A DNA stretch of 44,124 nt, taken from the NCBI GenBank assembly GCA_003602575.1, contig QQRY01000024.1, forward strand, positions 1-44,124. Reading direction: 5' to 3'. The position numbers and the translations under genes were made by a program. Each line of letters starts with the position of its first letter. Position 1 is the stretch's first letter. The stretch is from Candidatus Poseidoniales archaeon. GTDB lineage: Archaea; Thermoplasmatota; Poseidoniia; Poseidoniales; Poseidoniaceae. This document shows positions 244 to 38,367 of this stretch, piece after piece. The notes beneath the pieces were generated by a model. The model made no database searches, had not been told where the DNA came from, and saw nothing but the letters and a program-made list of their open reading frames with translations.

Positions 244-2615
244 TATATCACCTCGATTAAAATCATTTCTCCTAATCCATTACCATGATTTACGAGACAT
301 AATGGAATTTTTGAATCGCTTAAAATATTGTTGATTACGTCAACTTGCTCGAAGTTTTGTGTGAGCATCAATGTATCAACAATATTTGGTAAAATGGAGA
401 ACTGCCAAATCATCAAAAGTTCATTTTGTTTTCTAATTTCCCCGTCATTTAGCATTTCAAATAAGTATGAATGCCCAAGAACTGCATCCTCACCCATAGA
501 ATTCGTCAAAATCTCGTTTAGTTCTAAGAAGCAATCAATGTGCTGTTCTAATTCAGAAAAAGTGGAATCCACATCAATTAATTCTTGCTTGCTCATCGGT
601 TTCAAACGTATGAAACTGAAACGACGGCGCAGCGCAGCATCTAACGGAGTGACTGAGCGATCAGAAGTATTCATCGTTGCTACGATATGCAGATTCTTTT
701 TCTGATTATCACTTAGTTCTAATTTATCATCATCCAATCCTGCATTAAGAATTTGAAGAGTGGGAGGATTGCTATTTCCAATCAAACTTATCAAATCTCC
801 AAAGACTCGAGGAACATTAGCTCGATTCAATTCATCTATCCAAAGTAATGCCGGCCCTTCTTCTGCATCTTCAAGAATTTTCAGTAAATGCCCTTTTGTC
901 GGATTAAATATGAGTTCGCCATTATCCTTTCCAGGCCTAATTCCGCCGATAAATGAAGAATAATCTGATGAAGGGTGGAAAGTAAGAAATCTGGTAGAAA
1001 TTTCAGGACGTTTCTTAATCTGCTTGAAAATATGAGTTTTACCTGTTCCGGGAACTCCTTCTAAGATAACATATTTTCGTCGGATAATTTTTTCAATGAT
1101 ATCTTCCTTTTTGTCTTTCTTCTTGTCTTCTTCCATCGCAAAAAGATCGGGTAAATTAGATTTCATTCCTGTCCATAACGGGTGAATTAGTGAAGCCATA
1201 ATTTCTAAACCTAGTGTTATGTTATCGTGCCATTTCTCTACTGATGTACTCTGTCTAGTTAAGAGAAATACCTTCTTTATATTTTTACAAGCCTCTTTTT
1301 CTTTCGTATCACAATCATATAACTGTTTAAAACCAGCCGCCTCCATCTTTGAAGTGACCATGTCCAATATAGATTTCTCTTCATTTGAAGAATTTTCTGG
1401 AATCACAAGCCCCGCAGTAAATGCAATTTCGGTTGGCTCAAGTTTAGGTTCAATAGTTACATTGGTTTTTCTTGGTTTTCCGTCCGGCAATTTTCCAGAT
1501 TGATAACCTGGAAAATACGCGTTTAAGAAGAATTGTTCATTGTTAACGGCCTCAGTAGAAGAGCGAGTAATTCGGACATATCTTTTGAACTGCCAGGTTA
1601 CCCCGATAGATGTTGCTTGATGAAGTTGGTGCGTATTCAATCTTGAATGGCAATCTGTGGGCAATAATTCATCCCCTTTATTCGATTTTTTGAATTCTAT
1701 TGGCTCAAATTTTGAATCGTTTTGTTTTAACCACGCACTTTGAAGCATTACCCCCATTACATTTGTGAAGTTCGCAAGTTTTGATTCACCATCATTATCA
1801 TTTTCTTTTACCCAATCGGCATTTTCGGGGCTAAATTTTTCAGGAAACGTTGGACCCCAATTTGCATAATAACTTGGTTGCGAGGGTTTTAATTGGAGGG
1901 TTTTAGGACCCACTAGAGTAATTGAAATTTTTCCTTCTTCGGTCCACTCAAGTAAATCTCTACACAAATAAACAATTGCTTGATTTTGAATAGAAACGGC
2001 ACTGAAAATATCACCAGAAACCACGCCTTCTGAACCGAGTAATTCTTCATATCCCTTGATTGTAGCCCCTCGGTCAACAGTGCTAGGCGTATCTGACCAT
2101 TCCTCATTTCCGCTCTTTGGTGGCCTGTAGATCGTGATTTGTGAACCCTCACGTCTTAATCCACCTATTTTCCGTCTATTGCCATTAAATTCAAAGATGG
2201 AGCCATTATCTGGACCATCCGCCCTTTCAATCAAAAAATCCCAAAACGCATCTCCTGATAAAGGAAGAGAACTTTCAAATTCTCTAGACTCTGGAAAACC
2301 ATCCCAACAACATTTCTCCGGGGTATTTCCGCGTTCTTCAAAATGTATATATTGAAAATCATGCTTTTCAAGAATTCTTACAGCCATCTGAGTCTGATCT
2401 TTTGATCGATCAAAATTTGGATTGGCTAAATGCACGATTACTTTGGGTGGATAATATCGTCCTTTATGAAAAATCAATCCTGAGTAATTAGCATTAGGCC
2501 ACGGGTCTTTTTCTTCAAAATTACCTAATTTAGTTGACTTACCGCGATGATAGACATCAAATTCTTGCATCGCAATTAACAGGCGAGCCCGGGATGTATC
2601 GTGCTTAACCATCAT
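243..2615 (-). CDS. McrB-like AAA+ ATPase with N-terminal recognition-type domain
   Basis: Probable motor subunit of a modification-dependent restriction or related defence system. The C-terminal AAA+ domain has Walker A GVPGTGKT (about residues 519-526 from this start), Walker B plus McrB-style LLWIDELNRAN (about 588-598), and the MNTSDRSVTPLDAALRRRF sensor/arginine-finger block (about 648-666), all typical of McrB/MoxR-type ATPases. The first ~90 residues (SGLIFHKGRYYPPKVIVHLA) resemble the small N-terminal head domains found on ScoMcrA-like and other target-recognising nucleases. The open frame could begin at a GTG (2657) or ATG (2636), but a TATA-like box at about 2667-2674 predicts transcription from about 2644, which excludes the GTG. 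ATG 2615 is preferred and 2636 remains possible. Its stop overlaps the start of the next gene. Confidence 0.8.
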   Translation of the reverse strand: MMVKHDTSRARLLIAMQEFDVYHRGKSTKLGNFEEKDPWPNANYSGLIFHKGRYYPPKVIVHLANPNFDRSKDQTQMAVRILEKHDFQYIHFEERGNTPEKCCWDGFPESREFESSLPLSGDAFWDFLIERADGPDNGSIFEFNGNRRKIGGLRREGSQITIYRPPKSGNEEWSDTPSTVDRGATIKGYEELLGSEGVVSGDIFSAVSIQNQAIVYLCRDLLEWTEEGKISITLVGPKTLQLKPSQPSYYANWGPTFPEKFSPENADWVKENDNDGESKLANFTNVMGVMLQSAWLKQNDSKFEPIEFKKSNKGDELLPTDCHSRLNTHQLHQATSIGVTWQFKRYVRITRSSTEAVNNEQFFLNAYFPGYQSGKLPDGKPRKTNVTIEPKLEPTEIAFTAGLVIPENSSNEEKSILDMVTSKMEAAGFKQLYDCDTKEKEACKNIKKVFLLTRQSTSVEKWHDNITLGLEIMASLIHPLWTGMKSNLPDLFAMEEDKKKDKKEDIIEKIIRRKYVILEGVPGTGKTHIFKQIKKRPEISTRFLTFHPSSDYSSFIGGIRPGKDNGELIFNPTKGHLLKILEDAEEGPALLWIDELNRANVPRVFGDLISLIGNSNPPTLQILNAGLDDDKLELSDNQKKNLHIVATMNTSDRSVTPLDAALRRRFSFIRLKPMSKQELIDVDSTFSELEQHIDCFLELNEILTNSMGEDAVLGHSYLFEMLNDGEIRKQNELLMIWQFSILPNIVDTLMLTQNFEQVDVINNILSDSKIPLCLVNHGNGLGEMILIEVI

Positions 2616-2630
2616 GTTATCCACTAATGA

Positions 2631-2659
2631 ACACATACAAAGAGTATGTGTATACACAT
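2631..2659. promoter_or_regulatory. Operator-like cluster of inverted half-sites before the McrB-like gene
   Basis: Three copies of an 8-bp half-site alternate in orientation: ACACATAC (2631-2638), GTATGTGT (2644-2651, exact inverted copy after 5 bp) and an overlapping ATGTGTATACACAT palindrome (2646-2659). They lie between the TATA-like box (about 2667-2674 on the minus strand) and the likely ATG, where a bound repressor would block transcription. This suggests the defence-type operon is repressed by a dimeric regulator not visible in the window. Confidence 0.5.
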
Positions 2660-2892
2660 TTCATCATTAATAAATTAAGGATTCAATCAGTCTAGTCATA
2701 ATAAAGGCAGTTTCTTGTATTGCAAAACTAATTACTACACTTTGCTCATGCAGGCGATTAATTTATTCGTAATTCAATCTACAAATGTTTGTGTAGGGAA
2801 ACGAAATATCAGCTATTAGTAGTCAAAAAACTTCTTATTTTGTCTATGGAATTTTTCCGATTATTAATTTATCATTTTGTGCTATCTCGATT

Positions 2893-3225
2893 ATGTTTAG
2901 TTGGGATTTAGATGCCTCCTTGCAGAGACTTTTTTTCCTCAACATTCTACTTCTTCTCATTTTGCCATTTATTTTCGAAGGTTGGACGATTTTATTTATA
3001 TTGGGTTCAGCAGTTTTTCCAATATTAAATATCTTGACAGGCCTGACAGTTTCTATTGATGAATTGGATAGATTGGCATTTACAAGCATCTTATTCGCAA
3101 TTAATTTTCTAACAATAGTAATAACTGCTTTCATATTCAAGAATAATGGCTTTACTTGGGGATTAATTTTATCTTTGATACCGTCATTTATTATTGGATT
3201 TTATACAACTGGACTTGCGAATTAA
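2893..3225 (+). CDS. Small integral membrane protein
   Basis: 110 residues, mostly hydrophobic, with about three or four predicted membrane helices (around 13-30, 32-50, 63-83 and 90-106). No family recognised. The frame stays open and hydrophobic for about 95 bases upstream (to a stop at 2794-2796) but has no ATG, GTG or TTG there, so the annotated ATG may begin inside what was once the first helix. It could be a trimmed or decaying gene, or use an unusual start. It stands alone between the divergent McrB-like gene and the convergent dihydrouridine synthase. Confidence 0.5.
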   Translation: MFSWDLDASLQRLFFLNILLLLILPFIFEGWTILFILGSAVFPILNILTGLTVSIDELDRLAFTSILFAINFLTIVITAFIFKNNGFTWGLILSLIPSFIIGFYTTGLAN

Positions 3226-3343
3226 TATTTGTTTAAGCGATCTTTATCAGTTATGTTTTGATTATTGTATAATTGCCACATTTGTGAAATTTCGGAGTAC
3301 ATTAGTAAAGGAAGTAAATTAGATGATAAGTTTTGATTTGAAA
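3226..3343. other. Convergent intergenic region, nothing recognised
   Basis: 118 bp between the small membrane protein and the 3' end of the dihydrouridine synthase gene. AT-rich with no repeat, RNA or ORF that I can support. Confidence 0.5.
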
Positions 3344-4372
3344 TCATATGCTTCCAATTAAAAAGTCACTAATCGACTGAGCGAAGTCTTCGGGCGTAGG
3401 TTGTACATGCATCAAACCTCTTACTTTCTTGGCACCAGGTAATCCTTTGCTAAATGCTACTGCATGTCTTTGCATCCACTTGCCTTGAATGCCAGTGGTT
3501 TGTTTTGATAATTCGATATACTTGTCCCAGCACCATTTTCTAGTAGCGAAGGCCTTGCCTATTTCATCTAATTCAAACCAGTTTTCTTGATTGGCAATTA
3601 CCCATGGTAAATCCTCTTCTTTCATCCACCCAAGTCCGACTTTCATTTCTCCAAACATCGAAGGTCTACCAATCGCACCTCTTCCAACCATCAAACCTCC
3701 TGCATTGGTGGTTTCCAAGCATTCAGCAGCACTTTTAGAATCTACAACATCGCCATTTGCAATAACAGGGACATCGACAGAATCAACAACTTTCTTGATA
3801 TAGTTCCAGTCGGCTTCTCCTGAATAACGCTGTTTTAGGGTTCTGCCATGAACACAGAGGCGCTGAGTTCCTACTTCTTCCAACCGCTGACATATCTCAA
3901 TGGCATTATGTTGTTTGGCTCCAGTACCTAGGCGCATCTTTGCAGTGACTGGAATATCAACAGCGTCAACAATGCCCTCGACCATAGATACCAAGTTGTC
4001 AGGTTCTCCCATAAGCGCAGCACCAGCACAAATTTTGGTTACCTTTGGAGCGGGACAGCCAAAATTTAAGTCGATTAAATCAGCACTTGGTGCTAGCATT
4101 TCAGCAGCAGTAGCCATGTCTTTTGCATCGCCACCAAAGATTTGTGGAATAAATGGTATTTCAGTTTCGTGTGATTCCATTTTTCTCCATGAGACAGCTG
4201 CCTCCCGACTAAGAGCAGTACTATTGGTGAATTCGGTAATCGTCACGTCAGCGCCGCATTGCTTTGCAAGCAAGCGATAAGGAAGATCGGTGACTCCAGA
4301 CATTGGTGCGAGAAATAATGGGCGAGGCTCACCGTCCCATGGCCCAGGCTTGTCTCCAATAAACTCGCTCAC
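3344..4372 (-). CDS. dus: tRNA-dihydrouridine synthase
   Basis: FMN-dependent reductase converting uridine to 5,6-dihydrouridine in tRNA D-loops. At 342 residues it has normal Dus length. Visible hallmarks are LAPMSGVTDLPYR (21-33) at the FMN-binding start of the TIM barrel, DLNFGCPAPKVTK (101-113) holding the catalytic Cys (C106), the AKMRLG strand (144-149), CVHGRTLKQRYSG, and VPVIANGDV followed by GGLMVGRGAIGRPSMF for phosphate binding. It lies 37 bases downstream of a winged-helix regulator gene in the same direction, so the two may be co-transcribed. Confidence 0.95.
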   Translation of the reverse strand: MSEFIGDKPGPWDGEPRPLFLAPMSGVTDLPYRLLAKQCGADVTITEFTNSTALSREAAVSWRKMESHETEIPFIPQIFGGDAKDMATAAEMLAPSADLIDLNFGCPAPKVTKICAGAALMGEPDNLVSMVEGIVDAVDIPVTAKMRLGTGAKQHNAIEICQRLEEVGTQRLCVHGRTLKQRYSGEADWNYIKKVVDSVDVPVIANGDVVDSKSAAECLETTNAGGLMVGRGAIGRPSMFGEMKVGLGWMKEEDLPWVIANQENWFELDEIGKAFATRKWCWDKYIELSKQTTGIQGKWMQRHAVAFSKGLPGAKKVRGLMHVQPTPEDFAQSISDFLIGSI

Positions 4373-28500: not shown

Positions 28501-29128
28501 GAGAACTTTGGTTGGAGAAAACAGAACTCTGAATCATAATTCTACAACATGGATATTCAGAGTTGATGGAGTCGAAGATGAAGACTTGGAAACTCTCGGT
28601 TCAAATATTGAAGCAGACTCTAGAGTTGCAGGGGTAGTTGATTGGGCGAGCCAACATAAAACAGTGGAAAGGAATGGAGGTTTGATTTTTGGAACACCAG
28701 GGCTTCTTTCACTACAATTCGTAGTTGCTAGTATTGCAGCAGTTGCCTCCAGTTTCGTATTCTTATCTTTGGTACTTAACCAGAGAAAGAAAGAGTTAGC
28801 AGTTCTTCAAGCGATTGGAGCTAGTCCAAATCAAATCTTACGATTAGTGCTGTTTGAGATTTTATCTATTGTTATGGTCTCAATGGTATTAGGTTTGGTT
28901 CTTGGAATTGGTCTAGCCTTTTCTTTCAATGGATTCTTTGATGTGTTTGGATTTATCTTTGGTATATTTGGTGGTACATCAACAAGTATTCGCAGAGAAT
29001 TGGTTTATCCTTGGTTACAACTTGGATTTGTTTCTCTATCTGTTTTTGCTGCGGTAGTAATGGCACTACTCGTTACAACACGTAGAGCGTTAAAGTCTGA
29101 CCTAGCAATGGTCTTGAAGGGGGAGTAA
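25505..29128 (+). CDS. Giant FtsX/MacB-type ABC permease with pentapeptide-repeat insert
   Basis: 1207 residues with two FtsX permease halves. The first has its initial TM near 55-78, a large extracytoplasmic domain, and a core around 410-525 ([20 protein letters not shown]). The second has a TM near 645, another outer domain and a core around 1080-1200 ([18 protein letters not shown]). These coupling loops before the IGA motif are typical for the LolC/E-MacB class, which pulls lipoproteins or other envelope substrates. Within the second outer domain, residues about 828-922 contain pentapeptide repeats ([16 protein letters not shown] and [10 protein letters not shown]), expected to form a quadrilateral beta-helix. 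I do not know this insert in other FtsX proteins. It is flanked by two different ATPase genes. Confidence 0.9.
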
Positions 29129-29130
29129 GA

Positions 29131-30108
29131 ATGGTTGAAAGTATATTGAAAGCACAAGCATTGTATCACGTCTATGAATCTAAAGCTGAAGATGGAAACG
29201 TTGTTGCTCTTCGAGGGCTTCATATCGATGTTAAAGAAGGTGAAGCAATAGCAGTTGTCGGACCTTCTGGTTCAGGTAAATCAACACTAATGAAGTGTCT
29301 TGGTGGATTGATGAAGGCGAGTGCAGGGTCTGTTTTCCTTGCTGGAAAGAATATGACTCGATTGAGCGGCCCAGAACTGGTTCATCTTAGACAGAAGACC
29401 GTATCATTCATTTTTCAAGATGGAAATTTACTTCCTAACATGAATGCTAGAGATAATGTCGCTCAGCCACTAAGGCATCAAGGAATCTCATCAAGAAAAG
29501 CCTTGAAACTAGCCGATGAGATGTTAGACAAACTCGGTATTTTACACCGTGCAAAGGCCTTGCCAATGAGGCTAAGCGGTGGGGAACAACAAAGAGTTGC
29601 AATTGCTAGAGCATTAATCACAAATCCTAGATTGATTCTTGCTGATGAGCCAACAGGTGCTTTAGATCCAGTAACCAGCCGAGAAGTCCTTGCTTTGTTC
29701 AAAGACTTGCATGAAAATGATGGTGTATCATTCTTGCTAGTTACTCACTCAAAAGAAGTAGCAGCATTTGCTAATCGCTCACTCGAACTTAGAGATGGAA
29801 GATTTGTCGCTGAACATGGAGAAGGTGTTGATGTTGAAGACCTTTCAGAGGGAAGAGAGTTAATTATCGATGACACAGGTACTGTAACCTTACCTCCTGA
29901 TGTTTTACTTAGAATCGGTGGAGCAGGTAAGTATATGATTGGAAATATGGATAGTGGATACATCTCTTTACAAGGTGAAGGTGTTGAAAGTATGGGTAGT
30001 TTAGAACTCGCTTCAACATGCCCTGCATGTAAACATGATTATGGAGACTCTGATGACCAGTTATGTCCTGTTTGCGGTGCAAGTAGGCCTATGGTTGAAG
30101 TAAAATAA
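29131..30108 (+). CDS. ABC transporter ATPase with C-terminal zinc ribbon
   Basis: 325 residues; the second ATPase of the cluster, starting 2 bases after the permease stop. Walker A is GPSGSGKST (about 43-51), Q-loop [12 protein letters not shown], signature [14 protein letters not shown], Walker [13 protein letters not shown] and H-loop VTHSKEVA. After the usual ~225-residue domain comes an extension with a small beta region ([20 protein letters not shown]) and a C-terminal four-Cys zinc ribbon (C297, C300, C312, C315). The two ATPases probably make a heterodimer on the single two-halved permease, or act alternately. The zinc ribbon is unusual and may be a contact or sensing module (inference). 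Confidence 0.9.
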
Positions 30109-30220
30109 TCCAAAATGATTGTTATTTTTCTTCTAGGTGTCCTAAGAATATAGGAAAATAATCCCGTTTTTGGGCGTTTTGACCGAAACTTTTTTAACGG
30201 TGGCCACGATATGGTAGCCT

Positions 30221-30315
30221 GTACCGGAATGGTGAGTAATATGAGGGCAACAAGATTCGACATACAAATTGCGTTGATTCGGGCCCTCCGTCATCGCTGA
30301 TAGCGTGATCGGTAC
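30221..30315 (+). ncRNA. Candidate structured RNA with a compact three-way junction
   Basis: There is no good ORF here. Exact complementary segments nest: P1 GTACCG (30221-30226) with CGGTAC (30310-30315); P2 GAGGGC (30243-30248) with GCCCTC (30283-30288); P3 TCA-T-CGCT (30291-30298) with AGCGTGA (30302-30308), loop GAT, one bulged T. P2-P3 and P3-P1 are joined by only 2 and 1 nt. CGAAAC plus TTTTTTAA (30184-30197) looks like an archaeal BRE/TATA and would start transcription near 30220, the first base of P1. A further small hairpin (30320-30337) and a T7 run (30345-30351) could terminate it. It is not a 5S rRNA, RNase P, SRP or tRNA by its motifs. Confidence 0.45.
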
Positions 30316-30344
30316 GTTTTGCATTGTAAATGATGCATCTTTGA

Positions 30345-30351
30345 TTTTTTT
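30345..30351 (+). terminator. Oligo-T stretch after the candidate RNA
   Basis: Seven T residues follow the TGCAT/ATGCA hairpin (30320-30337). Archaeal RNA polymerase stops at such runs, so this may end the candidate RNA before the tRNA promoter region. Confidence 0.35.
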
Positions 30352-30386
30352 CATAGATGTTGTATTTTCTTTGCATACTGAAGCTT

Positions 30387-30458
30387 GGAGGTATGGTGTA
30401 GCGGATAGCATCAAGGATTTCGAATCCTTGGACCTCGGTTCGAATCCGAGTACCTCCG
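30387..30458 (+). tRNA. tRNA-Arg (anticodon TCG)
   Basis: 72 nt, no intron. Acceptor GGAGGTA pairs with TACCTCC (7 bp). The D-arm is GTGT/GCAT around AGCGGATA. Anticodon stem AAGGA/TCCTT holds loop TTTCGAA with anticodon TCG, reading CGA. The T-arm is CTCGG/CCGAG with loop TTCGAAT; discriminator G, CCA not encoded. It lies 11 bp before the second tRNA-Arg. Confidence 0.95.
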
Positions 30459-30469
30459 CCTTCAGAAAT

Positions 30470-30541
30470 GGGGGCGTGGTGTAATGGATAGCATAGTAGA
30501 ATGCGGCTCTACAGATCCGGGTTCGACTCCCGGCGCCCCTT
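30470..30541 (+). tRNA. tRNA-Arg (anticodon GCG)
   Basis: 72 nt, no intron. Acceptor GGGGGCG pairs with CGCCCCT (first pair G-T). The D-arm is GTGT/GCAT, anticodon stem GTAGA/TCTAC with loop ATGCGGC, anticodon GCG. The T-arm is CCGGG/CCCGG with loop TTCGACT; discriminator T, CCA not encoded. A four-gene operon of unknown function begins 21 bases after its 3' end. No second copy of its 3' end, which would mark an integration site, was found downstream. Confidence 0.93.
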
Positions 30542-30561
30542 CCAAATTAGGAGGAATAAAT

Positions 30562-31359
30562 ATGAAAAATAAAAATAATAATAAAAAAATAGAAAATAAC
30601 GAAGAAATAAATTCAGAATGGTTTGAAAATAATGGTTATAAAAAACCGGAAGACTTGATTGATTATGATGCAGATTTAGACAAACCGAAGAATTTCTTTG
30701 GTATTTTTGCTGCTTATAATCAACATAATATTGCTGAGAATAAAGCATGGGATAAATGGCCTGAATGGGAATTTTGTTTGACATCAATGAATGACACTCT
30801 TCATTTTGAGGACTTAGAAAACGATAAGCCACAAGTAATTGCAGAAAGAGAACACTGGCTTGCTCTAGCACAATTTATTTATGAAAATGATGAGATTTCC
30901 ATCGATGATTATACAATTTCTATCAATGGAAGAAATGGCAATAAATTTGCATTTGATTTTTGTTTAGAAATCAATTGCTGGGGTACGCCAGGTACATTTG
31001 CTGAACATAAGTCTTGGATGGAATCTAGTAAAGGAAAGATTAATCCGAACGTTAGAAGAAGAAACTTATATGCATTTGAGCACCAAATTGGGCATTCTCT
31101 AGGCCCTTGGTGGACTTGTCCAGAGTATATTCCAAGTTATGGCGGCAAGAGTACAATCCATACACCAGATAGCAGTTTTTGTGTAACTGGTGTTGGAGAA
31201 ACTTTCCCGCTGTGCATGCTTTCAGCAATTAATTTGTGTATTGATGATTTCCAAATTTGGATTATCCAATACAAGGAAGCCGAATCAACCGCTGAGTATA
31301 TTCAAAGAATAGAAAGAGAGTATCCTTCGGGGAGGCCTGAAGATTATTATTACCTGTGA
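30562..31359 (+). CDS. Unknown protein, first gene of tRNA-linked operon
   Basis: 265 residues. A Lys/Asn-rich leader (first ~15 residues) is followed by an acidic, Trp-rich protein with conserved-looking segments: DKWPEWEFCLTSMND, FDFCLEINCWGTPGTFAEH, SLGPWWTCPEYIPSYGGKS and PLCMLSAINLCIDDFQIW. No TM or signal peptide. I recognise no family. The start is set by a near-perfect Shine-Dalgarno AGGAGGA (30549-30555) 6 nt before ATG 30562; the longer frame from 30484 runs through tRNA-Arg and is rejected. The next gene begins 9 bases after its stop. Confidence 0.75.
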   Translation: MKNKNNNKKIENNEEINSEWFENNGYKKPEDLIDYDADLDKPKNFFGIFAAYNQHNIAENKAWDKWPEWEFCLTSMNDTLHFEDLENDKPQVIAEREHWLALAQFIYENDEISIDDYTISINGRNGNKFAFDFCLEINCWGTPGTFAEHKSWMESSKGKINPNVRRRNLYAFEHQIGHSLGPWWTCPEYIPSYGGKSTIHTPDSSFCVTGVGETFPLCMLSAINLCIDDFQIWIIQYKEAESTAEYIQRIEREYPSGRPEDYYYL

Positions 31360-31368
31360 GGTGAAAAA

Positions 31369-31590
31369 ATGAGTGAAAAAGAACAAGATAAGAAAAATAA
31401 AAAAGAGCAGAAGAGAATGAATGAAATGTATGAAATGATTAAGCAATTTATACAAACTCAAATTGAGGTAAATAAATCTAGGATTAAACACTTCAAAGAG
31501 TTTGATGATAGTCATGATGAAGATGAAGAATTTGTATCAATAGAAAATGAAACAGATTTTTCTAAAAAGTTTGAGGAGGAATGGGCATGA
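31369..31590 (+). CDS. Small charged coiled-coil protein
   Basis: 73 residues, extremely charged: a Lys/Glu-rich N-terminus (MSEKEQDKKNKKEQKRMNEM), an amphipathic helix (YEMIKQFIQTQIEVNKS) and an acidic C-terminus. Preceded by GAGGTGA as Shine-Dalgarno. Its stop overlaps the ATG of the peptidase gene (ATGA at 31587-31590). Its size and composition would suit an adaptor, an inhibitor or an assembly helper for neighbouring proteins; the function is unknown. Confidence 0.7.
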   Translation: MSEKEQDKKNKKEQKRMNEMYEMIKQFIQTQIEVNKSRIKHFKEFDDSHDEDEEFVSIENETDFSKKFEEEWA

Positions 31591-32129
31591 TTATCGGCTG
31601 GAAACCAGATTCTAAAGCGCCAATTTGGGATACTCAAAATGGAGTCGAGAATAAATTTTTCAAGAATCTCAATTTAAAACATATCCAGCAAATTGGGCCT
31701 TCATGTGTCGCGACAACCCTTACGATGATAGCAAGAAGTACAGGTGCAGATGTAACAGTCGATTACTTCAAGAAAATAACAAATTCTCAGTCACCCCAAA
31801 CTTGGTCCGATGCACTGAAACCATTTGGTATGCAACTTGCCTATTGTAATGTTGATTTGAGGAGAATTGGATACTACATAGATGAATTAATTTCTCATGA
31901 TGATTTATTCCTTTTATCATTTTATTCTACAAATCCACCAAGTGACCCTGATGAAAATGGAAAACTCTGCACAGCGCATATCGTGACCATGTATAGAGAT
32001 CAAATCTATGATACAGCCAAATCGAAAAACTTTGGAGGATTGGTAAAAGCACAGAATTATTCTAGGCTAGAAAGACAAACTAAGAGGATATTTAGAGTAG
32101 TACCAATAGGTCATCCGAGGTGTTTATGA
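31587..32129 (+). CDS. C39-like (papain-fold) cysteine peptidase
   Basis: 180 residues. IQQIGPSCVATTLTMIARS (about 35-53) matches the oxyanion Gln plus catalytic Cys helix of C39/papain-fold peptidases. LCTAHIVTMYRDQIYDTA later supplies the catalytic His and the Asp (H followed by a D about 11 residues on). No signal peptide, ABC domain or TM, so it is cytosolic. C39 enzymes commonly cleave double-Gly leader peptides or isopeptide-type bonds. The start at 31587 (third codon of the open frame) has GGAGG at 8-9 nt spacing and overlaps the preceding stop. It also overlaps the next gene by 4 bp. Confidence 0.7.
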   Translation: MIIGWKPDSKAPIWDTQNGVENKFFKNLNLKHIQQIGPSCVATTLTMIARSTGADVTVDYFKKITNSQSPQTWSDALKPFGMQLAYCNVDLRRIGYYIDELISHDDLFLLSFYSTNPPSDPDENGKLCTAHIVTMYRDQIYDTAKSKNFGGLVKAQNYSRLERQTKRIFRVVPIGHPRCL

Positions 32130-33643
32130 TGTCATCAAGTGTTAGGAAGTTTAACTCTAAATTTGGTTTTGGAGATTGTATTAATTATGGACCTGAAATC
32201 GGTGTAGGTTTGCCAATTGATATTGACAAAAACAGACCATTGGTTGTATGCCATCCCGCAGCTGGAACATATTATCATTCTAGTATGAGTTTATTTGAAG
32301 ATACAAATCACCCATTCATGCATATTTTGGTAGATTTTGGAGGTTATTACCCCTCTACTTATCCATATGTTGTCGATAGTATAAATCATGCAATATATCA
32401 CAGATTACCCGATTCTTCAGATGGAAATGCCATTTTTAGAAAAGCATCTTCTTCAAATCCGCATTGGCAAATGCATGTTATCGCAGAGGCATATGAATAC
32501 TTGAGTAAATCTCCACCAATCGACATCTTATACGTTGATTGGATGACTTGGTTAGATAAATTCATAGTAAACAGAAAGACTTCTTTTTGTGATATGATTT
32601 CACATTATATTCATAAAATTAGAGATGGCGGATTAATAATTATTGATGATAAACATGAAAATATAGAGCAGTGGTTTGATTTTCCTAAGAAAAGAACTAG
32701 AATTTCAAAGGATTCTGAGATTGAATTTCAATGTCAGATTGAGTGGTTAGGTACTGATTTGGAAGATAAAATGAAGTCCTATAGCGCTAAGGTAATCAAA
32801 GTCCATCATGACTCTGATGGGAAATTAGGTTCCAATAACTGGTTTGATGAAATAAAGCAATGGTTCTGGAATTCGATTCCTGAAATGGCATTAGATCAAT
32901 CACAAATTTCTAGAATGATTGAAAATAAGCAAAATGAATCGATTCATCACTTAGCGGTCACTTGGGAAGATTGGCATGATACGTGGAGGGACGTATACAT
33001 GGATTTGAATGAACCATATTTACATCCAGTCCCTCCAATAAAGGCTTGGCCAAAGGATTCGTATCTAAATTATCTAAAATGGCTTAATGAAAATCCAAAA
33101 TTATTATTTGAAAAAATGAAAAAAAGAACATATCAATTACAGAATTACAATTTTAAATTGACTCTTATACATGGAGATATTGTTGAATTAGCCCCCACTC
33201 TCTATTGTAGAGATGGAGCAATCGCTGTAAGGGAAAATCTTCAACAGAGAATAATATCTAGATGTCCTTGGTGGAAAAATCAAGCTACAGTGCTACAAAG
33301 AGGTAAATTATGGAATTACAATCCAATCAAAGGAGGACTAATTTGGTCAGGAAATAATTCTACACCTGACTTAACTAGATTATTGATTGAACAATCAATT
33401 AAGCAGCCATACATGGAATTATTTCCAAGTGTAAAACCCTTCAAATGTAGAAAAATTATCACAATATCTCATAGTAAAGCATGTCTTAAACAATTGATGG
33501 ATGTCTGTGAAGAATTTTTCAAGACAGAAAAAAAGTTAGATATTTTTACAGATGAGTTAATTGAATTAATCATTGTTCATAGAGATAAAAAAGACTATCA
33601 GGAATTTGATATAATGGCTGATTGGGAGAAAATTTCGGAATAA
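32126..33643 (+). CDS. Unknown protein, possible Rossmann/methyltransferase-like domain
   Basis: 505 residues from ATG 32126 (or 32129), which overlaps the peptidase stop; GAGGTG lies just upstream. The N-terminal part has alternating strands and helices resembling a class I methyltransferase-like fold: RPLVVCHPAAGTYYH (about 37-51), IDILYVDWMTWLDKF and IHKIRDGGLIIIDDKHEN (about 165-185). The C-terminal part (about 250-505) is Trp-rich with many helices and contains LTLIHGDIVELAP. The methyltransferase reading is weak because no clear GxGxG motif is visible. It ends 10 bases before the convergent ZnuB gene. Confidence 0.55.
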   Translation: MMSSSVRKFNSKFGFGDCINYGPEIGVGLPIDIDKNRPLVVCHPAAGTYYHSSMSLFEDTNHPFMHILVDFGGYYPSTYPYVVDSINHAIYHRLPDSSDGNAIFRKASSSNPHWQMHVIAEAYEYLSKSPPIDILYVDWMTWLDKFIVNRKTSFCDMISHYIHKIRDGGLIIIDDKHENIEQWFDFPKKRTRISKDSEIEFQCQIEWLGTDLEDKMKSYSAKVIKVHHDSDGKLGSNNWFDEIKQWFWNSIPEMALDQSQISRMIENKQNESIHHLAVTWEDWHDTWRDVYMDLNEPYLHPVPPIKAWPKDSYLNYLKWLNENPKLLFEKMKKRTYQLQNYNFKLTLIHGDIVELAPTLYCRDGAIAVRENLQQRIISRCPWWKNQATVLQRGKLWNYNPIKGGLIWSGNNSTPDLTRLLIEQSIKQPYMELFPSVKPFKCRKIITISHSKACLKQLMDVCEEFFKTEKKLDIFTDELIELIIVHRDKKDYQEFDIMADWEKISE

Positions 33644-33653
33644 AACCAGTTTA

Positions 33654-34565
33654 TCAATTTTCATTTGGCTTTAGAACTAAATTTTTGCTAAATTTTAAAA
33701 TTGCAGTTAATAAGAATATACAAGAAGCAACTAATGCTATCATTGAACCACTTCCCGTACTGTGTTCGGCAGAAAAGTATAGTCCAAGAAGAACAGTTAT
33801 TACTCCTATAATTTGAGATAGAATGGCACATGAGCGGAAACTTCTGCCGATTAATTGTGCAGTAGCAGCAGGTGCAACAATTAACGCAGTCACCAGTAGC
33901 GCGCCAACAATTTGTACCATACTTACCACAATAGCAGCGGTAATTACGCTAAAATAGATACGAATTAAACGAACAGGTAAACCTTGTACTTTAGCAGCAA
34001 TGGGGTCGATAGATATGGACAGTAAACTATGGTATAGGAACAGCATCGAGAGATATCCTATGATGCACACAATTACAATAATATTGAAACTTTGAGGATC
34101 AACCAACAATAAGTCTCCGTATAAATATCCATCAACAAGCCTTGATGCCGTACCGCCCCAAATACGCATTATTACTAAACCCAATCCAAGCATACCCGTC
34201 ATGAAAATTGCAATTGCAGCGTCCCCATCTAAAATTTTACGCGTCTGTAATTCATCGATTAAAATGGCTGATATAGTGGAAAAAATCAATGCATACCACA
34301 GAGCGTCCATTCCACCAAAAACCAATCCTATGGCGATTGCTCCAAATGATACATGCGCCAATCCATCTCCAATTAATGCGAGATTTCTTATCAATAAGAA
34401 AGTTCCAAGAAAACCAGCTACTAAGGCGACAAAAAATGAAGCAATTAAGGGTCTGTGAAAGTATTCTAGAAGAAAATAATTTGGAAAGAATTCTCCAGGG
34501 ACATGAGGCGCTAGGTCCTTCAATATCGGGCTAAGTTGCCGAATAATCCATGATCCAATGTCCAT
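33654..34565 (-). CDS. znuB: Zinc/manganese ABC transporter permease (ZnuB-like)
   Basis: 303 residues, ABC-3 family, about eight membrane helices. Typical segments are RPLIASFFVALVAGFLGTF, LIRNLALIGDGLAHVSFGAI, DGDAAIAIFMTGMLGLGLV and VQIVGALLVTALIVAPAATA. It has an unusual ~35-residue N-terminal lead before the first helix. Its ATG shares a base with the TAA of the ATPase gene (TAATG), so it is coupled to znuC. It forms the transport channel for the metal delivered by the giant ZnuA-like protein. Confidence 0.92.
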   Translation of the reverse strand: MDIGSWIIRQLSPILKDLAPHVPGEFFPNYFLLEYFHRPLIASFFVALVAGFLGTFLLIRNLALIGDGLAHVSFGAIAIGLVFGGMDALWYALIFSTISAILIDELQTRKILDGDAAIAIFMTGMLGLGLVIMRIWGGTASRLVDGYLYGDLLLVDPQSFNIIVIVCIIGYLSMLFLYHSLLSISIDPIAAKVQGLPVRLIRIYFSVITAAIVVSMVQIVGALLVTALIVAPAATAQLIGRSFRSCAILSQIIGVITVLLGLYFSAEHSTGSGSMIALVASCIFLLTAILKFSKNLVLKPNEN

Positions 34566-35410
34566 TATTCCTCCTCCCTAGAACCTGGTACAAGTATTAT
34601 AGTGGCTTCATTCTCAGATTTTTTTATTGGTTTGAAATCAGTTTCTTCATGTGTCGATTCAATGCCTCTCAATCGAGCGAGTTCTGAAAGTCCCGGGAAG
34701 TCTATGGTTGGGCCATCAAATCTTATTTTCTCTTCAAGGTAAATCATTCGATGTACAGTTTGCTTTATACTGGTTAAATCATGAGATATCATCACGATAG
34801 TTTTATTCTGCTCATGACATAAACCATCTAGTAATTTCATAATTGAATTTCGAGCCTCACGGTCTACGCCTACCATGGGTTCATCCATTAATATCAAATC
34901 AGCATCAGAAGCCAGGGCCTTGCCTATAGCCGCACGTTGTCTTTGACCACCTGATAAATGGGTGATTCTAGTATTGGTATATTCTTCAAGCCCAACGATT
35001 TCAATTATTTTTTTAACAGTTAACCTATCCTTTTTCAAAGGATAGAATAAAGATTTTATCTTAAGGGTCCCTAAAGTAATGAATTCTTTCACTGTTATGT
35101 GTACATTTGTAGGTAACTTGGAGGCTGTCTGTGGAACCCATCCAACCTTTCCAGTAATTCCTTTTGAAAGCGGCCACTGATTGTATATTTTGACAGTTCC
35201 AGATTTTGGTTTAAGAACCCCCAGTATCGTCATAATTAGCGTACTTTTCCCGCCACCATTAGGTCCTACGATTCCTACAAACTCACCGCATGCAATTGAA
35301 ATATTAATGTCCTCAATTACTTTGCTACCAGAGCGGAAAACAGACAAATTAGAGACGTTGAGAATTTCTTCTCCACAGTTCCCAATTGACACTGACTGCA
35401 CTGTATCCAT
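34565..35410 (-). CDS. znuC: Zinc/manganese ABC transporter ATPase (ZnuC-like)
   Basis: 281 residues with a full ABC ATPase: Walker A GPNGGGKST, Q-loop VGWVPQTAS, signature LSGGQRQRAAIGKAL, Walker B LILMDEPMVGVD, H-loop MISHDLTS. A short C-terminal extension (about 240-281) is charged. It lies 50 bp downstream of znuA and overlaps znuB, so the operon order is znuA-znuC-znuB. Confidence 0.93.
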   Translation of the reverse strand: MDTVQSVSIGNCGEEILNVSNLSVFRSGSKVIEDINISIACGEFVGIVGPNGGGKSTLIMTILGVLKPKSGTVKIYNQWPLSKGITGKVGWVPQTASKLPTNVHITVKEFITLGTLKIKSLFYPLKKDRLTVKKIIEIVGLEEYTNTRITHLSGGQRQRAAIGKALASDADLILMDEPMVGVDREARNSIMKLLDGLCHEQNKTIVMISHDLTSIKQTVHRMIYLEEKIRFDGPTIDFPGLSELARLRGIESTHEETDFKPIKKSENEATIILVPGSREEE

Positions 35411-35460: not shown

Positions 35461-38367
35461 TCAAGCAGTACATCCCATACCAATTTTCAGATTTTCAAGA
35501 TTCTTATTCATCATTGTTAGATAAGTATCGCTATCATCTGAAGGAGACATCTCCATAGTGTACAAGTAAAGAACTTGAACTCCAGTGGAATCGACAATAC
35601 TGTCAACTGCACTTCTTTGAGTGTATTCTTCAATATACAAAACAGTTATTTCGTCTTCATTGATCTTTTCAATTACTTCTGCAACATCCGCAACTGAAGG
35701 TTCTCCTTCAGGGTCCAAGCCGTGAACTGTAACGAACTCGATACCATAACGTACTGTTAGGTATGAATATGCATTGTGGTTAGCAGCAACTATGTTACTT
35801 GTACACGCGCTAGAAGGGCCAAATGCGTTGATATATCCTAGGTGGATTCTATCTAGTTCAACCATAAACTCCTGTGCATTTGCAGTGAAAGTTTCATTTC
35901 CTTCTGGGAATTGTTCGATTAGAGCATTAAGAACTAGGCTTGTTTGTGCTTTGAAAGCCACAGGGTCTAACCAGCTGTGCGGGTCATATTCGAATTCTTC
36001 TTCATCTTCGTCTGCTACGATGTTAGATTCGCCATCTGCATCACCATCATCATGTCCAGAATGGTCATCATGATCGTCATGTCCAGAATGGTCATCATGC
36101 CCAGAGTGATCGTCATGGTCATCATGTCCACCTTCACTCATTAGGATGTGTGCTGTGACATGGGATGGCAATGCAAAACCATAGTCGCCCTCGTTCTCAA
36201 CATGAATTGTTAGGAATCCGCGTGTTCCATCATTTGGCTCACCTTCCATCCACAAGTGTCCGGCTGCTTCGCAGTCTGATTGATTTGTATCTTCCATGTT
36301 TTCGTGTGTTTCTGTGTTGTGGCAAATAGGATATTCTTCATGATCGTCATGTCCATGGTGTCCGTGGGCACCGCCACCTTCTTGAGCAACAGGTTCAATA
36401 TCTGTACCAGTTGAATCTTTTAGATAGTGTTGATCACGCTCAAATTCGGTTGGTACATGCTGAGCATAAATTGCCAGGCCAGAAATTCCGGTAGTATCCA
36501 TGTTGAAGGTAGAGTCATCACCAGTACCTACATGAAGTTCGAAACAGGTTCCTGTATCAGCTATGTTTTGTATGGTTTCGCCATCTTCGACAACTGTACA
36601 GTCTCCTTCAATCAAAGATTCTGCGTCACTTTCAAGACTGTGCATTGTGGCTTCATCTGTAGTGTCAGTTGGGATTAATACCAAGCGCATCGATGGGTCG
36701 GCATACGCACCGTTTACCTTTTGCATTGACCAAGTGTGTGAGGCATCGTCCATAGCAAATATTCCTGCCCACTCAAATGCTTCGTCTCCATGGTCATCAT
36801 GTCCGTCGTCTCCGTGGTCATCATGTCCGTCGTCTCCGTGGTCATCATGTCCGTCGTCTCCGTGATCATCATGTCCATCGTCTCCGTGGTCATCATGTCC
36901 GTCGTCTCCGTGGTCATCATGTCCATCGTCTCCGTGGTCATCATGTCCATCGTCTCCGTGGTCACCATGTCCGTGATGGTGATGAGCGTGTCCTCCTAGC
37001 ATTGGAAGTGCAGCAACATCAAAACTGGTAGCATCAGTCGAACTGATTTCAAACTCTACAACATGGTTGCCTTTTTCCAAGTGGAAAACAGCGATTTCGG
37101 TGCCCGCTGGGCATCCAGCAGGGTTTTCGATTACCTTTTCAGGTTCAGCATGGGCATGTCCGTCGTGATCCCCATGGTCATCATGTCCATCATCATCTCC
37201 GTGGTCGTCGTGTCCATCATGGTCATCATGTCCGTCATCTCCGTGGTCGTCGTGTCCATCATCTCCATGGTCGTCGTGGTCGTCATGGTCGTCTTCAGGA
37301 GAAGGAATTGTAGAATCAACAGTGCTGTTTGGAGCCCAAGCAATATGCTCAGCGTCTTCCATGAGTACAAGGTCCATTCCATCATTGCTGTATTCCCAAG
37401 ATTCTACAGAATCATTCCAAACATGTAATTCCCAGTACCATGAGTAATCACTAGGTGCTGTAAATCCTCCAATGGAGTTGGTGTAGTTGCCAATTGAACT
37501 TTCGATGATTTCGTAACTGATACTGTTAGCAGTAAGTCCCATTTGCGTGAAATCATTTGCAGTTGCATTTTCAGGAAGGTTGTCGTGTTCTTCTTCAATC
37601 ACAACGCTTGTGCTATCTGGATAGACAACAACTAGGCTATGATGCATTTCTTCGTGATCTCCATGTTCATCATGTCCATCATGATCATCGTCATGACCAT
37701 CGTGGTCTCCGTGGTCGTCATGGTCATCGTGGTCATGGCCCTGAAGTGATGCAGCATCAGCGCCAGGGAAAGTCAAAGTGTGAACTCCTCTTTCTAAGTG
37801 AATTTCTAGTTCAGACGCTTGTCCTTCATAGCTCATAAGCGTGTTAGAAACTCTTACTCCCTCGTTTAGCTGCTTGCATAGGTCGCTGACTAATAGAGAT
37901 TGGAAATCAGGAGTTGTTTCTCCAGTTGGCATTGTATGGGTGGCATAAGCAGGTGGTGCATCGCTACCCAGTGTAGACAAAGTATCAGCAACCCAAGGCT
38001 CTAGGTCCAATCCGTGATAGAAGAATACATCGCTATTTGCGAGTCTTACAGTGTCTTGTATCGTAGGTGTATAATCGTGTACTGGGATGTTTGATGTACT
38101 CATCATTTCCACATTTGCAGTAGGTCCAACAATTGCCGAGACAAGTTGAGCAACGTGATATGTGGATACCATTATGTTACCATAATCAGGGATTATAGTT
38201 TCATTCGAAGTAATATTTTCTGTATTGTTTCCATCATCCAAATCAATGTCTAAATCACTGATATCTGATATCTCTTCGATTATTGCATCATCTTCTAAGC
38301 AACCAGCAAGGCTGGAAAAAATCATCAACAAGCTTAGTAGAATGGCCCTATGCCAATTAGTCTTCAT
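35461..38367 (-). CDS. znuA: ZnuA-like metal-binding lipoprotein with giant His/Asp-rich insertion
   Basis: 968 residues against about 300 for normal ZnuA. The signal peptide ends in a lipobox-like SSLAGC (C23). The ZnuA N-lobe is visible at about 60-165 (IPVHDYTPTIQDTVRLANSD, FYHGLDLEPWV). The C-lobe is at about 795-968 (DPHSWLDPVAFKAQTS, AANHNAYSYLTVRYG, VLYIEEYTQRSAV), keeping the canonical metal-binding His positions. Between them lie about 630 residues holding several beta-rich segments separated by runs of HDDHGDDG-type repeats and one Cys motif (CHNTETHENM...DCEAAGHLW). The runs could store or scavenge zinc. The gene is leaderless behind a TATA-like TTAAATAG (38388-38395) and divergent from a NikR-like regulator. 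Confidence 0.9.
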   Translation of the reverse strand: MKTNWHRAILLSLLMIFSSLAGCLEDDAIIEEISDISDLDIDLDDGNNTENITSNETIIPDYGNIMVSTYHVAQLVSAIVGPTANVEMMSTSNIPVHDYTPTIQDTVRLANSDVFFYHGLDLEPWVADTLSTLGSDAPPAYATHTMPTGETTPDFQSLLVSDLCKQLNEGVRVSNTLMSYEGQASELEIHLERGVHTLTFPGADAASLQGHDHDDHDDHGDHDGHDDDHDGHDEHGDHEEMHHSLVVVYPDSTSVVIEEEHDNLPENATANDFTQMGLTANSISYEIIESSIGNYTNSIGGFTAPSDYSWYWELHVWNDSVESWEYSNDGMDLVLMEDAEHIAWAPNSTVDSTIPSPEDDHDDHDDHGDDGHDDHGDDGHDDHDGHDDHGDDDGHDDHGDHDGHAHAEPEKVIENPAGCPAGTEIAVFHLEKGNHVVEFEISSTDATSFDVAALPMLGGHAHHHHGHGDHGDDGHDDHGDDGHDDHGDDGHDDHGDDGHDDHGDDGHDDHGDDGHDDHGDDGHDDHGDEAFEWAGIFAMDDASHTWSMQKVNGAYADPSMRLVLIPTDTTDEATMHSLESDAESLIEGDCTVVEDGETIQNIADTGTCFELHVGTGDDSTFNMDTTGISGLAIYAQHVPTEFERDQHYLKDSTGTDIEPVAQEGGGAHGHHGHDDHEEYPICHNTETHENMEDTNQSDCEAAGHLWMEGEPNDGTRGFLTIHVENEGDYGFALPSHVTAHILMSEGGHDDHDDHSGHDDHSGHDDHDDHSGHDDGDADGESNIVADEDEEEFEYDPHSWLDPVAFKAQTSLVLNALIEQFPEGNETFTANAQEFMVELDRIHLGYINAFGPSSACTSNIVAANHNAYSYLTVRYGIEFVTVHGLDPEGEPSVADVAEVIEKINEDEITVLYIEEYTQRSAVDSIVDSTGVQVLYLYTMEMSPSDDSDTYLTMMNKNLENLKIGMGCTA
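36785..36976 (-). repeat. Eight tandem 24-bp repeats within the ZnuA-like gene
   Basis: Eight consecutive 24-bp units, TCTCCGTGGTCATCATGTCC plus GTCG on the plus strand with few substitutions, encode eight copies of an eight-residue D/H/G unit. The near identity at DNA level, including silent positions, points to recent expansion by slippage or unequal crossing-over. Less regular relatives occur around 36050-36130, 37160-37290 and 37650-37740. Confidence 0.9.

Follow-up and report, generated by a model that had tools for sequence, protein, structure and literature searches.

What holds together a block of archaeal DNA in which a short arginine-rich open reading frame (ORF), two supernumerary tRNA-Arg genes and four protein genes without a single CGN arginine codon (N, any nucleotide) follow one another? 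This block lies on contig QQRY01000024.1 of a Poseidoniales (Marine Group II) archaeon, within a stretch of 44,124 nucleotides that was analyzed as a whole and is termed the window here (part of contig C17 of genome G000, which comprises 59 contigs). The original prediction described an operon of four overlapping genes, here named g1 to g4, directly behind a tRNA-Arg(GCG). These genes lie where it placed them, ATGA overlaps are present at the g2-g3 and g3-g4 junctions, and 9 bases separate g1 from g2. The operon is real but forms part of a larger unit of about 30114-33652, arranged as promoter-like site, 19-codon leader ORF, tRNA-Arg(UCG), tRNA-Arg(GCG) and g1-g4. The tRNA-Arg(UCG) at 30387-30460, the leader ORF at 30241-30300 and the lack of CGN codons in g1-g4 were absent from the earlier account, and its spacing of 21 bases between tRNA-Arg(GCG) and g1 has to be corrected, as the tRNA end called by ARAGORN at 30544 places the g1 start 17 bases past the tRNA. 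The larger unit, referred to as the cassette, is probably an inducible unit that answers a failure of CGN (arginine) decoding. Its parts are as follows:

30114..33652, + strand: whole cassette, an inserted block missing at the homologous site of the relative G012, where the flanks lie 4 base pairs (bp) apart in the alignment.
30183..30197, + strand: B recognition element (BRE)/TATA-like archaeal promoter CCGAAAC-TTTTTTAA, assigned by eye.
30231..30235, + strand: Shine-Dalgarno-like GGTGA of the leader, read from the sequence.
30241..30300, + strand: leader ORF MRATRFDIQIALIRALRHR, with CGN at codons 14, 17 and 19 of 19, AGG at codon 2 and AGA at codon 5.
30243..30288, + strand: predicted RNA hairpin GAGGGC/GCCCTC, covering most of the leader ORF and ending before the last two CGN codons.
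30387..30460, + strand: tRNA-Arg(UCG), cassette type, supernumerary (ARAGORN, Rfam).
30470..30544, + strand: tRNA-Arg(GCG), cassette type, supernumerary (ARAGORN, Rfam).
30562..31359, + strand: g1, Trp-rich protein of 265 amino acids (aa); 0 CGN of 8 Arg codons; elsewhere 1-3 copies per cassette.
31369..31590, + strand: g2, charged protein of 73 aa with a conserved C-terminus of the type FxxxFxxEWx; 0 CGN of 2 Arg codons.
31587..32129, + strand: g3, C39-like cysteine peptidase candidate of 180 aa with conserved Q35, C40, H131 and D142; 0 CGN of 9 Arg codons.
32126..33643, + strand: g4, protein of 505 aa with a methyltransferase-like N-terminal region and a second alpha/beta region; 0 CGN of 19 Arg codons.

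The cassette is not confined to the window. A pattern search through 84,980 species, each represented by one genome, detected 65 further g3 loci, which are assigned to Poseidoniales, Poseidoniaceae, Poseidonia, Thalassarchaeaceae, Marine Group II or Euryarchaeota and, for locus L099, to Thermoplasmatota. Together with the window, g3 is present in 66 loci, g1 in 62, g4 in 56 and the combination of g1, g3 and g4 in 55; four of the 11 loci lacking the full g1 and g4 set stop within about 110 bases behind g3. For the 49 loci with ample flanks, tRNA-Arg is found in 47, g1 in 47 and g4 in 43. This co-occurrence is far beyond chance, and the earlier view of the genes as one operon is borne out by its conservation and recurrence elsewhere. 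The usual order is tRNA-Arg, an optional gene of about 130-190 aa in some lineages, one to three copies of g1, then g2, g3 and g4; exceptions are L099, with g1 after g3, L078, where g4 is replaced by a second g1-like gene, and L092 and L098, which are without g1. The best-conserved cassette protein is g3, with 52-77% identity to the window copy. Relatives of g4 occur in 29 of 99 genomes searched, namely 28 of 59 from the genus (the window's own included) and one from another family of the order; the 65 loci of the species scan overlap with these genomes and are related to each other, so that the cells of such counts are not independent. A g3 profile matched 28 of the 59 genus genomes and 18 of 292 genomes spread over the phylum, all 18 belonging to the window's order, while no match to g3 was obtained among viral contigs, phage records and plasmid records.

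Two loci carry g3 as an orphan, at L094:9965-10537 and L096:6225-6809, with ordinary CGN use and no cassette tRNA, leader, g1 or g4 nearby; the L096 contig stops about 100 bases past its g3. These genes are possibly an ancestral stand-alone form of the peptidase.

The choice of arginine codons sets the cassette apart from its surroundings. In the window, none of the 38 Arg codons of g1-g4 is CGN, compared with 221 of 540 in the other 31 window genes counted (naive chance 2e-9). All loci bar the two orphans hold 14 CGN among 1907 Arg codons in trimmed g1, g3 and g4, and CGC is never used; g1 ORFs were trimmed where they reach into the tRNA (the untrimmed count, 157 CGN of 2371, is inflated), and g1 or g4 copies that are cut by contig ends or contain N were left out of the g1/g4 set. 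Where enough flanking sequence is available (40 loci), CGN accounts for 10 of 1342 Arg codons in the cassette vs 3675 of 5426 (68%) in the flanks, compared with 55 vs 60% for Leu CTN and 72 vs 69% for Ser TCN. The third-position GC content (GC3) of other amino acids differs between cassette and flanks by at most 0.12, mostly upward, and the largest fall and rise of any non-Arg codon in the cassette are 0.47 and 0.71 log2 units, respectively. Every one of the 38 loci that offer 20 or more cassette and 50 or more flank Arg codons has a lower CGN share in the cassette, and even at L066, with a GC3 of 0.75, the counts are 0 of 35 in the cassette vs 80 of 86 in the flanks. The optional gene, recognized by eye in 16 loci, is CGN-free in 12 of them (0 CGN vs 9-14 AGR codons, R being A or G; the L095 copy is partly N), and the other four copies (L038, L053, L087, L089) contain 2-3 CGN codons and have a called start inside the tRNA gene. 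As the orphan g3 genes of L094 and L096 use CGN freely (7 of 12 and 12 of 16 Arg codons), the purge is tied to the cassette and not to the protein family. Three general causes were rejected: codon use from an AT-rich donor, as GC3 of individual amino acids, where it departs by more than 0.05 from the flanks, does so upward and by at most 0.12; general CpG avoidance, as NCG codons are enriched in the cassette; and arginine poverty, as the Arg fraction of the cassette is 4.0% and the skew lies in the choice among Arg codons.

The tRNA genes belong to the same unit. A tRNA-Arg on the same strand is located upstream of g3 in 61 of the 66 loci; three of the remaining five have a contig start in or just before the genes and the other two, L094 and L096, are the true orphans. 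The 158-bp tRNA pair has a strong match (E < 1e-19) in 28 of the 59 genus genomes, and a comparison with g3 yields 25 genomes with both, three with the tRNA pair only, three with g3 only and 28 with neither. In each of the three genomes with the tRNA pair only, g1 is still visible ahead of the contig end, the contigs of the three g3-only genomes are broken at the cassette and in G011, counted under 'neither', a contig begins with a fragment of g4. These tRNAs come on top of the housekeeping set: the one-contig Marine Group II genome G055 encodes 40 tRNAs, in which each anticodon occurs once apart from Met(CAU), present three times, and Arg(UCG), present twice, and the second Arg(UCG) is the cassette's own tRNA. 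The cassette-free genome G045, with 38 of its 42 tRNA matches typed, has the same four housekeeping Arg tRNAs (CCU, GCG, UCG, UCU) and no match to the cassette tRNA pair. An origin as duplicated host tRNAs was rejected, as the two window tRNAs are only 55-68% identical to the four housekeeping tRNA-Arg of G045. The housekeeping tRNA-Arg(UCG) on contig C1 of G055 includes a run of N, which is probably an assembly artefact.

Comparison with relatives reveals the block in its absence. At the homologous site of G012, 4 bp replace window 30114-33652 and the cassette-flanking genes are adjacent (window 29000-30113 aligns to 1183-2296 of L228 and window 33653-34996 to 2301-3646), and the site of G021 is likewise empty. 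Cassette-negative genomes yielded 13 stretches that surround the ATPase gene at this site, those of G012 and G021 and 11 others, and no tRNA was present in any of them. The co-occurrence of tRNA and g3 and these tRNA-less empty sites argue that tRNAs and operon are gained or lost together. The original prediction had pointed to tRNA 3' ends as common sites of accessory islands; such an insertion here is contradicted by the empty site without a tRNA and by the lack of an att-like repeat (no tRNA word of at least 10 bases in window 33561-35000), and the tRNAs are instead extra copies that belong to the cassette. The two insertion ends share no word of 7-14 bases, and no integrase family was matched by the four cassette proteins in scans of Pfam, NCBIfam, PADLOC and PHROGs.

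Altogether, 103 cassette tRNAs were collected, 51 with anticodon UCG, 8 with ACG and 44 with GCG. All seven acceptor pairs are kept in 98 of 99 parsable cassette tRNAs, U33 and A38 are kept in all 59 UCG/ACG-type tRNAs, and the 1-72 pair of the GCG type varies (A-U 16, U-A 14, C-G 7, G-C 2, G-U 1) in a manner that, judged from the sequences, is compensatory. These features argue that the cassette tRNAs are for the most part decoding-competent members of a lineage of their own. A search of viral contigs with the cassette-tRNA pattern returned three loci (a tRNA-Arg(UCU), a tRNA-Arg(ACG) and one without a called tRNA); at 2201-2273 of viral contig L261 (IMGVR_UViG_3300031999_000135), a tRNA-Arg(ACG) exactly matches the cassette tRNA D-arm pattern.

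Upstream of the tRNAs, all 60 testable loci have an ORF of 19-26 codons, which is located between the first tRNA and the promoter-like site; the other six loci comprise five without a tRNA found and one with too little upstream DNA. The stop codon of this ORF lies 40-145 bp upstream of the first tRNA, and a Shine-Dalgarno-like motif, taken from a loose motif list, precedes the ORF in 58 of the 60 loci. The site at window 30183..30197 is what we take to be the promoter, read by eye after the archaeal BRE/TATA consensus, and motifs resembling it are visible by eye at a comparable place in many cassette upstream regions. Within a fixed range of distances, the ORF richest in Arg was taken as the leader, and a like rule was used for the controls. 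Past codon 4, the 60 leaders contain 214 CGN vs 30 AGR codons, and Arg makes up 22% of leader residues vs 4.0% in the cassette proteins. At least two CGN codons are found in all 60 leaders and at least three in 54, compared with a mean of 4.8 of 60 (maximum 9) reaching three in 100 dinucleotide-shuffled sets and with 13 of 58 tRNA upstream regions of G055 and G045, one of which belongs to the cassette tRNA itself. Leader peptides vary by clade (for example MRGDTFLNRNVAQQPLCKRR, MTEKHSWKYRYRRYFRFHPIR and MQWKKFSRWGRLRRRVRSYERAFNQL) while the Arg clusters persist. Folding energies of the leader RNA are below the shuffle mean in 12 of 12 loci, with z-scores below -3 in six of these and of -3.2 for window 30241-30386, and a hairpin across the ORF that ends near the CGN codons is predicted for the window and several relatives. 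Rfam recognized the tRNAs only.

The identity of the proteins can be narrowed down in part. All 47 g3 sequences compared retain Gln35, Cys40 and His131, and at least 90% of them retain Asp142; by analogy with the family, these would be the catalytic Cys, His and Asp and the oxyanion Gln. Weak matches to Peptidase_C39_2 were obtained for 16 of the 47 members (best E 0.016), the g3 protein of the window (P0003) has no Peptidase_C39_2 match in Pfam, and a PDB profile search with g3 gave nothing useful. By its retained Gln-Cys-His-Asp positions, g3 looks like a C39-type, or C39/papain-like, cysteine peptidase, in agreement with the earlier assignment. The g4 model, with a predicted local distance difference test score (pLDDT) of 85.8, has 16 PDB matches at E <= 0.001 (best 2.5e-5), nearly all of them methyltransferases, at poor superposition (query template-modeling score, TMq, 0.12-0.16). 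A Gly-rich S-adenosylmethionine (SAM) motif is not present in g4, in which strand 39-44 is followed by a conserved HPAA that presumably stands at methyltransferase motif I. As modeled, g4 resembles SAM methyltransferases, as had been proposed. For g1, the confident model (pLDDT 86.8) has no match at E <= 0.001 in PDB and BFVD. The small ORF directly before g3 ends in an FxxxFxxEW-type motif in 46 of 66 loci, as seen by eye; the one PADLOC match, Cas8b to the charged g2 (E 0.0085, 12.9 bits), was set aside as an effect of composition. The optional gene is weakly GNAT-like in two of five copies tested and may encode an acetyltransferase. Further small genes that are CGN-poor or CGN-free lie past g3 or g4 at L092:1329-4067, L098:2783-3820 and L091:11883-12176, which suggests a variable effector repertoire in some lineages. 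Outside the cassette, a ZnuA-like zinc-binding protein of 968 aa, recognized by eye, is encoded at window 35461-38367; it contains very long His/Asp repeats, and its gene neighbours ZnuB/ZnuC-like genes.

A CGN-rich leader, spare CGN-reading tRNAs and CGN-free effectors form a constellation that fits a gene set needed while CGN codons are unreadable, from which we infer ribosome stalling as the switch. The short leader ORF with its CGN cluster would be translated first. If the CGN-reading tRNA-Arg were lost, cut or uncharged, the ribosome would stall at the leader CGN codons, the leader RNA would refold and expression would run on into the two spare tRNA-Arg genes and g1-g4, joined in some lineages by the extra, possibly acetyltransferase, gene. 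Because their arginines are encoded almost exclusively by AGA/AGG, the effector genes would be translatable while CGN decoding is down. The spare tRNA-Arg genes would then restore CGN decoding, and the peptidase candidate, the methyltransferase-like protein and the two proteins without known relatives would act against whatever had caused the failure, most likely a viral or toxin attack on tRNA. The trigger could be such an outside attack, which is the best reading, a toxin of the cassette itself or, when arginine is short, uneven charging, which fits poorly with added tRNA genes. More tentatively, and with slightly less than even confidence, the cassette can be viewed as a new inducible archaeal immunity or rescue system that guards one codon box by means of a stall alarm, spare tRNAs and effectors written in synonymous codons. 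Defence, which had been named among the possible roles, is possible on this basis, but through evidence that the original prediction lacked (leader, spare tRNAs and codon purge), while peptide maturation or conjugate removal gained no specific support.

Several observations weigh against an inducible response to CGN failure. Scans of the four proteins against Pfam, NCBIfam, PADLOC and PHROGs revealed no match to families known from immunity or RNA repair. In L088 and L093, the gene standing in for g4 contains CGN codons (8 of 16 and 11 of 17 Arg codons, respectively); it encodes a protein of 216-217 aa that overlaps the g3 end (L088:10537-11190 and L093:3774-4424) and may be a recent recruit. 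ORFs with two CGN codons are also found in 25 of the 58 control upstream regions, so that single leaders prove little and the weight lies in their constancy across loci, and the leaders contain AGR codons too, mostly AGG at codon 2. At the RNA level, RNAalifold on 35 leaders supports only four pairs, located elsewhere than the predicted hairpin, whose columns scarcely vary and whose covariation support is weak; neither a terminator nor an anti-terminator was demonstrated in the leader RNA by the folding and covariation analysis, and the modeled switch structure is unproven. Among the tRNAs, U33 is missing in 3 of 40 parsable members of the GCG type, the anticodon stem of which is full in 24 and imperfect in 16, and the spare UCG tRNAs display no obvious nuclease-resistant anticodon loop. 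In eight loci the anticodon is ACG, an uncommon one among archaea that might leave some CGN codons unread.

Part of the evidence would equally be expected if the damage were self-inflicted, i.e. if the cassette itself disabled the host CGN-reading tRNA-Arg as a toxin, abortive-infection or addiction module with the spare tRNAs as antidote and the leader as feedback. CGN-free genes would keep being made in this case, which accounts equally well for the purge and the linked spare tRNAs; g1, with its confident model and no known fold match, could be a new effector, and the optional gene, weakly GNAT-like in two of five copies, recalls tRNA-acetylating toxins such as TacT, which is named in PMC12409363. 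Such a module is nevertheless unlikely, as the library scans found no nuclease or known toxin family among the cassette proteins and the ordinary anticodon loops of the spare UCG tRNAs make no resistance to a cutter visible. A sensor of arginine shortage, for which parts of the codon-sensing work on Bacillus subtilis speak (PMC3862929), would exploit selective charging: CGN isoacceptors would become uncharged first and AGR isoacceptors stay charged, rendering the leader codons sensitive and the structural genes insensitive, while the peptidase would scavenge arginine. Added tRNA genes would presumably worsen charging, the near-absolute purge (14/1907) exceeds what a partial loss of charging would ask and no arginine biosynthesis gene was recognized among the cassette proteins in the library scans, which makes this sensor quite improbable.

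It is also conceivable that the tRNAs serve as arginine donors for a tRNA-dependent peptide pathway, or that a modified peptide is made from the leader peptide. As tailoring enzymes, a peptidase, an acetyltransferase and a methyltransferase would be compatible with this, and an Arg-rich peptide of 19-26 aa is encoded in all 60 loci tested. Apart from Arg, however, the leader peptide is not conserved across clades, and a donor role leaves both the CGN avoidance in g1-g4 and the CGN coding of most leader arginines unexplained, so that we give a peptide pathway very little credence. It is barely credible that the block is an accessory island of the ordinary kind, inserted at the 3' end of a tRNA gene and still bearing the codon use of an AT-rich donor. 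The patchy distribution of the cassette and its different genomic sites in different genomes agree with an island, and to this extent the earlier view of an accessory or transferred block stands; the AT-rich donor does not, as the cassette has a GC3 similar to or higher than that of its flanks in most of the 40 loci. The empty site without a tRNA, the lack of an att-like repeat and the CGN-rich leader within the same element point in the same direction, and the empty-site and GC3 results already contradict an island.

An inducible response to CGN failure shares single elements with known systems. In the ribosome-mediated attenuators of the trp/his type that control bacterial amino-acid operons, the genes under control are likewise preceded by a short leader ORF in which regulatory codons cluster, and the regulatory codon is the most limitation-sensitive one (PMC1183508). 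In contrast, the cassette is archaeal, controls supernumerary tRNA genes and proteins that are not known to be biosynthetic, has structural genes almost wholly without the regulatory codons and has no terminator shown. Phage-encoded tRNAs are thought to evade host anticodon nucleases and have been proposed as spares against tRNA attack (PMC10264068); the cassette differs in its location in cellular genomes, its restriction to Arg(NCG), its link to one operon and one leader and the anticodon loops of its UCG-type tRNAs, which are not visibly altered. The loss of a specific tRNA is also at stake for PARIS AriB, PrrC and colicin D, the last of which is cited as acting on tRNA-Arg(CGN) (PMC12409363), but the library scans gave no indication in the cassette of a nuclease or trigger domain of this kind. 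SinR of Bacillus subtilis illustrates how a codon subset of a six-fold amino acid can function as stress sensor (PMC3862929); unlike the cassette, it is described as involving no dedicated RNA or protein, sitting in the regulator's own coding sequence and showing no near-complete purge. Finally, Charybdis elements are small Marine Group II elements with accessory methyltransferases, some beside tRNA genes (PMC12324425). They are circular, of about 4.6 kilobases, with a structural module and with an integrase when integrated, whereas the cassette carries its own tRNAs and no recognized integrase, a distinction drawn at the level of the published Charybdis description.

Among the matches listed by a search of open-licence literature, with bioRxiv outside its scope, no title or abstract opening describes this cassette. 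We know of no system that joins a codon-specific leader, supernumerary tRNAs and an operon purged of exactly those codons and, to our knowledge, the cassette would be the first archaeal leader-peptide switch if an inducible response to CGN failure is the true reading. The combination also provides a rule for genome scans, in which extra tRNAs beside genes that lack their codons can point to similar systems for other amino acids. If the reading is true, archaea use leader-ORF control, and Poseidoniales are under real selective pressure from losing a codon box. These archaea, which are abundant in the surface ocean, would then have a virus or rival that attacks their CGN-reading tRNAs, and what attacks tRNA in marine archaea would become a directly testable question.

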